Positions 3,441-38,747 of a DNA stretch of 50,396 bases are shown here, one piece after another. Each line of letters opens with the position of its first letter. The first letter of the stretch is position 1. The stretch is from an uncultured Erysipelotrichaceae bacterium (lineage in GTDB: Bacteria; Bacillota_I; Bacilli_A; Erysipelotrichales; Erysipelotrichaceae). The stretch is taken from positions 1 through 50,396 of the forward strand of contig CALVGQ010000076.1 of assembly GCA_944327135.1 (NCBI GenBank), given 5' to 3'. Position numbers and translations under genes: made by a program. The notes beneath the pieces were generated by a model. The model searched no databases and was not told where the DNA came from. It saw nothing but the letters and a program-made list of their open reading frames with translations.

Positions 3441-3470
3441 GAAAAGGCGCTTTTTCCCACAAAAGCGCCT
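3441..3470 (-). terminator. Expression-platform terminator of the purine riboswitch
   Basis: On the minus strand the stem GGCGCTTTT / AAAAAGCGCC with loop GTGGG is followed by a T-rich tract (complement of 3436-3444). It lies between the aptamer and the permease start, the layout of a transcriptional OFF switch. Confidence 0.85.
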
Positions 3471-3482
3471 GAAAAGCCTTTT

Positions 3483-3547
3483 GTTGTAGTGTGATCTTCT
3501 GGCGTCACGTAGAAACTTTTGTAACCATTCCATACAAAATATACAAC
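3483..3547 (-). promoter_or_regulatory. Purine riboswitch aptamer, guanine type
   Basis: Read on the minus strand, P1 is GUUGUA/UACAAC. P2 is UUUUGUA/UACAAAA capped by a loop ending in AUGG. J2/3 carries the invariant GUUUCUAC. P3 is a short GUGA/UCAC stem whose loop contains CC able to pair with the GG of the P2 loop. J3/1 reads ACUA, with a C at the specificity position (position 74 in the known aptamers), which predicts guanine/hypoxanthine rather than adenine. P3 is weaker than usual, about 4 bp. A terminator follows and then the permease gene. Confidence 0.88.
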
Positions 3548-3586
3548 CAAAATACTTATTTAGTATACTCGTTTCAAAATTTGAAA

Positions 3587-5295
<1,709 letters not shown>

Positions 5296-5406: not shown

Positions 5407-5450
5407 TTCTGAAATATTGTCAACAAGTTACTTGACAACATTTTCAGAAA
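5407..5450. repeat. 44-base extended inverted repeat
   Basis: Two arms, TTTCTGAAA-TA-TTGTCAA and the reverse complement of TTGACAA-CAT-TTTCAGAAA, face each other around a short centre that itself contains CAAG-TTA-CTTG. It sits between the pyrG promoter and the candidate small RNA, and its right arm provides the -35 TTGACA of the small RNA promoter. It could be an operator for both divergent transcripts. Confidence 0.6.
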
Positions 5451-5460
5451 AGATTAAACT
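5432..5460 (+). promoter_or_regulatory. Promoter of the candidate small RNA
   Basis: A consensus -35 TTGACA (5432-5437), a 17-base spacer and a -10 TAAACT (5455-5460, four of six matches) predict a start near 5466-5468. That is exactly where the first hairpin of the candidate RNA begins. Confidence 0.6.
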
Positions 5461-5466
5461 ACTTCC

Positions 5467-5580
5467 ATAAATACTTTCCCGAGTATTTATAAAGAAAAAT
5501 GTGTTTTAAATACCTTATCCTGTTTCTTCTTTTTCCCGTAAACACATTTTTCGAAAAGACCCTTTCCCGTGGGTCTTTTT
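5467..5580 (+). ncRNA. Candidate small RNA with three UUUCCCG-bearing hairpins
   Basis: This stretch has no plausible gene of its own but reads as a compact RNA of about 114 bases. Hairpin 1 is a perfect 9-bp stem (5467-5475 with 5482-5490) whose loop shows UUCCCG. Hairpin 2 pairs AAATGTGTTT (5497-5506) with AAACACATTT (5540-5549) and carries UUUCCCG at 5532-5538 in its large loop. Hairpin 3 is an intrinsic terminator, AAAAGACCC / GGGTCTTTTT, with loop UUUCCCGU (5563-5570) and a T tract. The heptamer TTTCCCG occurs three times (5475, 5532, 5563), each time in or at a loop. C-rich UCCC loops are the hallmark of Staphylococcus Rsa RNAs and RoxS/RsaE, which pair with ribosome binding sites. Homology to those families is not claimed. 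Confidence 0.6.
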
Positions 5581-5590
5581 ATTTGCATTC

Positions 5591-5616
5591 AAAAAGCGCC
5601 GTTCTTGCGGCGCTTT
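5591..5616 (-). terminator. Terminator of the CcdA-thioredoxin gene
   Basis: The stem AAAGCGCC / GGCGCTTT (5593-5600 with 5609-5616) follows the stop codon by three bases on the minus strand and is followed by a T5 tract. Confidence 0.85.
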
Positions 5617-5618
5617 CT

Positions 5619-6752
5619 TTATTCTCCCTGCATCTGCTCAAAAATATCCAGAACCGTTGCTTTATCCAAATAGCCTGGTGCATAGCCATAAAACTCCCCA
5701 TCGGCCTGCACGAAGAAATTATTCGGATAAGCGCTGATTCCATAGGTCCGGAATACCTCCCCGTTTTCATCAAACAATACCGGAAACGTATAACCCATTT
5801 CATCGAGCCAAGCGATGATCTCTTCTTTGGACAGATCACTGCCGCCCGGCTGGATCACTCCCAGCAAAACCACTTCATCCTGTTCCTCATAAAGCTCCTG
5901 GATGTGCACCAGCTCGGCCTTGCAATAGCCGCACCAGGTCGCAAAAAAAGTCATCATCACCGGTTTTCCGGAATACTCGGAAAGCGTATGCGTACGCCCA
6001 TACTGATCCTCTAACGTAAAGTCATACGGATTATCCGTATTTTCCTGCTGGGCCGTTTCCGACTGCACCGCCGAAACGCTGCGAAAGCCTTCATTCATCA
6101 TGAAAATTCCCATGATCACCAGCAGGATCCCGCCCACTTTCACCATCGTCTCTAGCAGCTTCTGTTTGCTTCTAAGCAGCTTTAATGCCTGATTGGACAA
6201 CAGCCCCAGCAGCAAAAATGGAATTAAGAACCCCGCCGCATAACAAAAGATCATGACCGTTCCCTGCATGCCGCCCGCTTGGGCCGCCAGCAGGATCACG
6301 CTGCTTAGCGCCGGACCAATGCAGGGAGTCCAGGCAAAGCTGAACAGAAAGCCCATCAGAAAAGCCGTCATTCCATTCATCTTCTGCACATTCAAGACCT
6401 TCGGCAGCCGATGCTCCCGCATCAGCCACGGGATCTGGATCACATTCAGCTGCAAAAGTCCCATCAAAACCACAAACACGCCGCCCAAGATCGTCAACTG
6501 CAGCTTCCAGCGGGCAAACAGGTTGGATGCACTCACCGCCGTCAAGGCCAGCACAAAGAAGGTCATCGTGATTCCCAGCACAAAAAACAGTGTATACCAC
6601 AAGATCGAAGAACGCTTATAGCGGATCGTTCCATCCGGCGCCACCTGCTTGGCATTCTGGCTCAAATACCCGATATAAAGCGGAAGGATCGGCAGCACAC
6701 AGGGGCTAAAGACCGAAAGAAATCCTTCCGAAAAAAGCAGAAATAATTTCAT
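5619..6752 (-). CDS. CcdA-like thiol-disulfide transporter fused to a TlpA-like thioredoxin
   Basis: 377 residues from the ATG at 6752. An ATG two codons earlier sits only two bases from the AAGGAG site, so the second is favoured. Residues 1-220 are the DsbD-beta/CcdA membrane domain with its paired cysteines in FSPCVLP (Cys18) and TPCIGP (Cys144). After a linker, residues 240-377 form an extracytoplasmic thioredoxin-like domain with the redox motif WCGYC (Cys274, Cys277) inside MTFFATWCGYCKAEL. The protein should carry electrons from cytosolic thioredoxin across the membrane to its own external redox domain, as in methionine sulfoxide or cytochrome maturation systems. No such partner gene lies nearby. 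It follows uppP by 12 bases and may share its transcript. Confidence 0.9.
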   Translation of the reverse strand: MKLFLLFSEGFLSVFSPCVLPILPLYIGYLSQNAKQVAPDGTIRYKRSSILWYTLFFVLGITMTFFVLALTAVSASNLFARWKLQLTILGGVFVVLMGLLQLNVIQIPWLMREHRLPKVLNVQKMNGMTAFLMGFLFSFAWTPCIGPALSSVILLAAQAGGMQGTVMIFCYAAGFLIPFLLLGLLSNQALKLLRSKQKLLETMVKVGGILLVIMGIFMMNEGFRSVSAVQSETAQQENTDNPYDFTLEDQYGRTHTLSEYSGKPVMMTFFATWCGYCKAELVHIQELYEEQDEVVLLGVIQPGGSDLSKEEIIAWLDEMGYTFPVLFDENGEVFRTYGISAYPNNFFVQADGEFYGYAPGYLDKATVLDIFEQMQGE

Positions 6753-6764
6753 TGTCATCGCTCC

Positions 6765-38456: not shown

Positions 38457-38479
38457 AAAAGTACGTGAAAATGAAAATG

Positions 38480-38747
38480 CTGTGATAAGGAATAGTACAT
38501 ATCGCGAACATGCTAGAGAAATCCTGATTTGGTGAAATGGATCTTGAACGCATATCGAACACCCCTTTGAGCAATTCGGGCGAACCTTTTTAGTAGTCCG
38601 AATCGGTCCCCTGCACCCGTTATCCTGCTAGAGTATGTTAGTACTCGAAGAGGTTACTGTTGTGAAGCAGTAATAAAAAGAGGTGGTACCACGGTAGCAA
38701 TCGCTCTCGTCCTCTGACACATCGTGTCAAGGCGAGGGCGTTTTTCT
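38480..38747 (+). promoter_or_regulatory. T-box leader controlling an amino acid ABC transporter
   Basis: The leader has the stem I landmarks: AAGG...CCTT base, AGTA on the 5' side, an AGAGA bulge, a GGTG distal loop, and GAA on the 3' side at 38557-38559. The codon after GAA is CAC (38560-38562, His), my best reading of the specifier. The T-box motif AGGTGGTACCACGG lies at 38681-38694, and a terminator follows (38703-38745). The UGGU in the T-box bulge would pair with an A discriminator, while bacterial tRNA-His normally has C, so the histidine assignment is tentative. Uncharged tRNA would permit transcription of the transporter. Confidence 0.9.
38703..38745 (+). terminator. T-box terminator
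   Basis: CGCTCTCGTC pairs with GGCGAGGGCG, with an inner TGACAC/GTGTCA stem, followed by T5. The 5' arm competes with the antiterminator that contains the T-box motif. Confidence 0.85.

Follow-up and report, generated by a model that had tools for sequence, protein, structure and literature searches.

Does the stretch between the CTP synthase gene pyrG and a CcdA-thioredoxin fusion gene of an uncultured Erysipelotrichaceae bacterium encode a small regulatory RNA and, if so, does a heptamer that occurs there three times account for the function of this RNA? Both had been proposed in a first-pass annotation of the 50,396 nt of DNA analyzed here (the window, from the genome denoted G000), in which three loops displaying UUUCCCG were taken as the design of the RNA.

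Promoter, fold and repeated heptamer of the locus

The region in question spans positions 5432-5584 of the plus strand (Table 1). The sequence bears out the proposed start of the RNA, with a TTGACA element, a 17-base spacing, a −10 element and a hairpin from 5467 onward, and the promoter matches 10 of the 12 consensus positions. The RNA from 5467 to 5584 is predicted to fold with −33.1 kcal/mol, compared to −12.5 ± 3.0 kcal/mol for shuffled sequences (z = −7.0, 0 of 200 shuffles), and homologues from other genera, described below, yielded z-values of −7.8, −3.4, and −6.3. The fold consists of three hairpins, of which the central one carries a pyrimidine-rich loop of 33 nt (5507-5539) and the third (5553-5580) is the intrinsic terminator itself. 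With its own promoter, an intrinsic terminator and no conserved ORF found, the locus has the organization of the C/U-rich antisense small RNAs (sRNAs) of low-GC Gram-positive bacteria. The second terminator mainly serves the oppositely oriented CcdA-thioredoxin gene.

Table 1. Positions of the sRNA elements, the neighboring genes and other RNA elements in the window.
Feature	Position	Strand	Basis or remarks
Purine riboswitch	3467-3566	−	Ahead of a xanthine/uracil-type permease gene between pyrG and guaA
pyrG (CTP synthase), divergent neighbor	3587-5188	−	Pfam PF06418, E 4e-125
sRNA promoter	5432-5460	+	−35 TTGACA 5432-5437, 17-nt spacer, −10 TAAACT 5455-5460
5' hairpin	5467-5490	+	Fold; located at the predicted transcription start; apical loop with UCCC; TTTCCCG 5475-5481
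Central hairpin	5494-5552	+	Fold; stem 5494-5506/5540-5552
Intrinsic terminator hairpin	5553-5584	+	Loop UUUCCCGU at 5563-5570, followed by a U tract
Second terminator, bidirectional	5593-5616		Terminator calls and sequence
CcdA-type membrane protein fused to a thioredoxin-like domain, convergent neighbor	5619-6758	−	Pfam PF02683 and PF00578
T-box leader	38473-38717	+	

Several further features were observed in the vicinity. An inverted repeat, TTGTCAA-N8-TTGACAA (5417-5438), lies across the −35 element in the window only and is possibly an operator of the sRNA promoter, whereas the other members of the sRNA family share an AT-rich TTTACAATT..TGAAAAT stretch upstream of the −35 element. Control by CodY, suggested by a AATTTTCWGAAAATT-like site between the −35 and −10 elements, was rejected, as a Pfam search found no CodY in the genome. 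Ahead of pyrG, the region 5213-5295 of the minus strand could be an attenuator: a 21-codon frame (5230-5295) follows an AAGGAGG motif and has its stop codon inside the first arm of a hairpin (5213-5237) that resembles a terminator and carries a U tract directly ahead of the pyrG start. This hairpin differs in several relatives.

The three TTTCCCG copies are present at the positions originally given (5475-5481, 5532-5538, and 5563-5569, plus strand), in or at the edge of the three predicted loops. Their description as loop motifs throughout is only partly accurate, however: the copy in the terminator loop has all seven bases open and the copy in the central hairpin lies at the 3' edge of the loop, but in the first loop only UCCC is fully open, as the MFE structure has the first two U as well as the G in base pairs. 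Similarly, the view that the repetition is hard to explain by chance has to be toned down. TTTCCCG did not occur three times in any of 20,000 dinucleotide-shuffled versions of this region, but some 7-mer with at least three G/C did so in 32 of them (0.16%), which puts the odds for the region at about 1 in 600, uncorrected for the choice of where to look. Six such triple 7-mers exist within the 50-kb window, five of them elsewhere than in the sRNA. The repeat is thus unusual, but not overwhelming.

Conservation of the gene in three genera

A plain DNA search of 60 relatives yielded nothing above chance. A covariance model of the window sequence alone (R1) retrieved G144 (E 1e-4) and G093 (E 0.008), both of genus g21, and a model of these three sequences (R2) retrieved G121 (E 3e-4). 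The same kind of gene was found by synteny in G034, G128, and G150 of the nearest genus, g35, where it is located downstream of CcdA and transcribed from the other strand, an arrangement identical to that of the window; a third model (R3) added G102 of the same genus. Altogether, there are seven homologues in two other genera and eight members in three genera, with the gene present in all four g35 genomes and three of the four g21 genomes seen. The G034 sequence is strongly divergent and was assigned from synteny, promoter and architecture. The window genome has a single copy, its only other model match being antisense inside a coding frame. Weaker matches (L179-L184, L186-L189, L227/L228) were discarded on account of broken stems, promoters absent where inspected, or location within coding frames. 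Outside the family, 295 genomes of the order contained no credible match, an absence that is soft because the first look scores only about 13 candidates per genome. As far as searched, the sRNA family appears to be limited to three related Erysipelotrichaceae genera. In G144, a 64-nt direct repeat (95% identical; L177:1798-1962) was observed 200-300 nt downstream of the sRNA, and G093 and G121 have a similar sequence behind the sRNA; the element is probably the terminal part of a small gene encoded on the other strand.

All eight members have the promoter pattern TTGAC[AT]-17-TA(A/T)A(C/A)T with equal −35/−10 spacing; in the three g21 homologues it reads TTGAC[AT]-17-TATAAT, with CATAAAC at the start. 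The 17-nt sequence TAAACTACTTCCATAAA is identical in the window and in G102, where it precedes a stretch of N. In addition to promoter and start, the homologues keep a hairpin at or near +1, the central hairpin and the terminator hairpins. The best conserved part is the central hairpin, with a C/U-rich loop of 30-46 nt across the family, flanked in the g21 homologues by stems of the AUGUG/CACAU type (GUGUG/CACAC, bulged, in G121) that enclose a loop whose core is CCUAUUCCUUCUUUUUcC. The position of the 5' hairpin is kept in all homologues, but its loop sequence is not, and in G144 this loop has merely three bases.

When the window sequence was aligned with G144 and G093, the alignment being fitted to the structure, 11 of the 33 pairs were changed on both sides, which was equaled by none of 500 shuffles; sliding the pairing partners by 1-3 columns roughly halved the pairing. 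Compensatory changes affect 5 of the 13 pairs of the central stem, including four consecutive pairs in which AAAA/UUUU became UUUU/AAAA, plain by eye. In the terminator hairpin, 5 of the 10 pairs are changed on both sides among the homologues.

The first-pass annotation had expected stems with compensating changes and the three UUUCCCG loops to be kept together in related genomes. The stems are kept, but TTTCCCG, and even TCCC, is absent from all seven homologues, so that the three identical loops are not supported as the design of this RNA. Instead, the three copies appear to be peculiar to the window genome, i.e., lineage-specific. A search for the exact triple pattern in 245 family genomes, with the first gap set shorter than the window's own 50 nt, gave 4 matches compared to 3 in the reversed control, which is noise. 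What recurs is composition: across the eight members, pyrimidines make up 68-81% and G makes up 2-11% of the unpaired bases. UUCC occurs in 2-5 copies per member, mostly unpaired; these counts are in weak excess over shuffles, but for the window (p 0.3) and for G034 (p 0.5) there is no such excess. Apart from G034, the g35 members carry UCC in their 5' loop, and their third loop contains CUUCCUUU; C/U in several loops thus recurs, but not throughout the family. On the evidence of the promoter, the hairpins and covarying stems kept in two other genera, the block 5467-5584 is a real, conserved small-RNA gene, and the initial assignment as a stand-alone regulatory RNA gene is upheld.

Proposed pairing with start sites and alternative readings

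The reading that we favor, with a probability of about 0.64, is that 5467-5584 (plus strand) is a free-standing gene for a trans-acting antisense RNA of about 115 nt that blocks Shine-Dalgarno regions without Hfq. We infer its expression, its target pairing and the role of each loop as follows. Transcription would begin at the foot of the 5' hairpin, which should shield the RNA end from 5'-directed decay; the central hairpin would present a long C/U-rich loop, poor in G, in unpaired form, and the RNA would end at the intrinsic terminator. The central loop is proposed to pair with purine-rich Shine-Dalgarno regions and thereby block translation or affect the stability of mRNAs, independently of Hfq. 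In the window genome, the UCCC of both outer loops might pair as well. Hfq (PF17209) was found in none of nine genomes (G000, G034, G102, G128, G150, G020, G093, G121, G144), whereas control genomes were positive.

The central loops were predicted to bind the start regions (−22 to +2) of 266 genes, sampled from the respective genome, about 5 kcal/mol better than flanking stretches. Dinucleotide shuffles of most central loops bind start regions equally well, and therefore the modeled preference seems to reflect C/U composition and singles out no specific target. The exception is the central loop of G034, for which only 1 of 30 shuffles was as good at ribosome sites. The proposal that UUUCCCG itself pairs with many start regions is weak: among the 266 ribosome-binding stretches, CGGGAAA is absent and GGGAAA is present in 3, compared to 114 with AGGAG, and the heptamer of the first loop binds slightly worse than its own shuffles. 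The heptamer as such is therefore not adapted to ribosome sites, and a small number of targets whose start regions are G-rich and A-rich is likelier than a large one. A target ranking covering 16% of the genome placed deoD- and purC-like genes, identified by eye, on top; it was set aside and is not counted as evidence because the energies follow C/U content. We consider it doubtful that, in a broader version of this mechanism, the conserved anti-Shine-Dalgarno-like C/U-rich loop acts on start sites in general (Hfq not having been found) and that the window genome independently evolved three identical, LhrC-like seeds.

A real RNA could also use its C/U-rich loops to bind protein rather than mRNAs, as a decoy for an RNA-binding protein. 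The long single-stranded loops, the conservation of composition rather than sequence, and repeated motifs that would fit a protein with several binding sites are in line with this. CsrA-type titration, however, requires GGA motifs in loops, and these loops are almost devoid of G, while their composition directly suits Shine-Dalgarno pairing; moreover, we know of no C/U-binding regulator of a suitable kind in these bacteria. We therefore regard a decoy as unlikely. Even less likely is a sponge for, or pairing with, other small RNAs, or an action on rRNA by a loop that mimics the 3' tail of 16S rRNA (UUUCCUCC in G034). This idea draws on the G034 central loop, UUUCCUCUUUUUUCCUCCUUUUCU, which resembles the anti-Shine-Dalgarno tail and surpasses its own shuffles as described above, but the exact anti-Shine-Dalgarno core is missing from the window and from the g21 members.

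The location between pyrG and the CcdA gene, the palindromes that act on both strands and the density of terminators could alternatively indicate a cis element, namely a leader or antisense RNA of one of these genes or a mere stack of terminators between convergent genes. However, promoter and RNA stay while the neighbors change (cutC and CcdA in g35; guaA and glgA, or plsY, in g21), which argues for an independent gene and not a leader. In addition, the sRNA is divergent from pyrG and stops short of the CcdA gene, and members of the bacterial family with adjacent pyrG and CcdA genes but without the sRNA exist, all of which makes a cis element improbable. Least probable of all, and rejected, is a small hydrophobic peptide (toxin-like or from a dual-function RNA) with the C/U-rich loop as Phe/Leu/Ser codons: an ATG at 5499 opens MCFKYLILFLLFPVNTFFEK... 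in the window, and MxSFLFFLSFILL is common to G102 and G150, but such codons arise from any C/U-rich stretch, no ribosome site precedes the ATGs (duplexes of −0.8 to −2.2 kcal/mol), G144 and G093 reach a stop after two codons, one U shifts the frame in G128, and no conserved small ORF was found.

Comparison with known small RNAs

No Rfam family matched at its gathering score, LhrC and RsaE did not match even at E ≤ 10, and the open-access papers searched did not describe any trans-acting small RNA from these gut bacteria. The weak match of 5456-5614 to EF3314_EF3315 of Enterococcus faecalis (RF02634; PMC3166299), which has an equal succession of hairpins, reached 23.2 bits in the window compared to a gathering score of 100 and recurred in none of six homologue loci scanned, and was dismissed as chance.

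This new family probably works like sRNAs that are already known. LhrC, RNAIII, and RsaE are established examples of sRNAs whose UCCC seeds block Shine-Dalgarno sites (PMC4132741, PMC9217828); blocking by a C/U-rich loop has been shown for LhrC (PMC4132741) and reported for RsaE (PMC9217828), and by analogy the C/U-rich loop of the window sRNA would act in the same way. With RsaE/RoxS of Staphylococcus and Bacillus, small RNAs of low-GC Gram-positive bacteria, it shares C-rich seeds (PMC9217828, PMC5419742) expected to bind G-rich Shine-Dalgarno regions, whereas architecture and sequence differ. The promoters of RsaE/RoxS are under Rex/ResD control.

The closest likeness in layout is to LhrC of Listeria monocytogenes, which regulates lapB independently of Hfq by masking the Shine-Dalgarno region (PMC4132741). 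It is about equal in size and has three redundant C/U-rich UCCC sites, in the 5' loop, a middle single-stranded stretch and the terminator loop (PMC4132741), and the window sRNA has UCCC at all three places. In Listeria, LhrC is LisRK-dependent, acts on defined mRNAs and is present in five copies. The window sRNA has a single copy, and its middle site is part of the loop in a long closed hairpin; its three sites are not kept in the homologues, all seven of which lack UCCC. The three UUUCCCG copies may represent a lineage-specific elaboration in which, as with the CU-rich sites of LhrC, several seeds are redundant. A family that can be followed from promoter to terminator and has a recognizable seed would offer a first handle on post-transcriptional control in Erysipelotrichaceae gut bacteria, and a natural comparison for the origin of LhrC-like multi-site RNAs.
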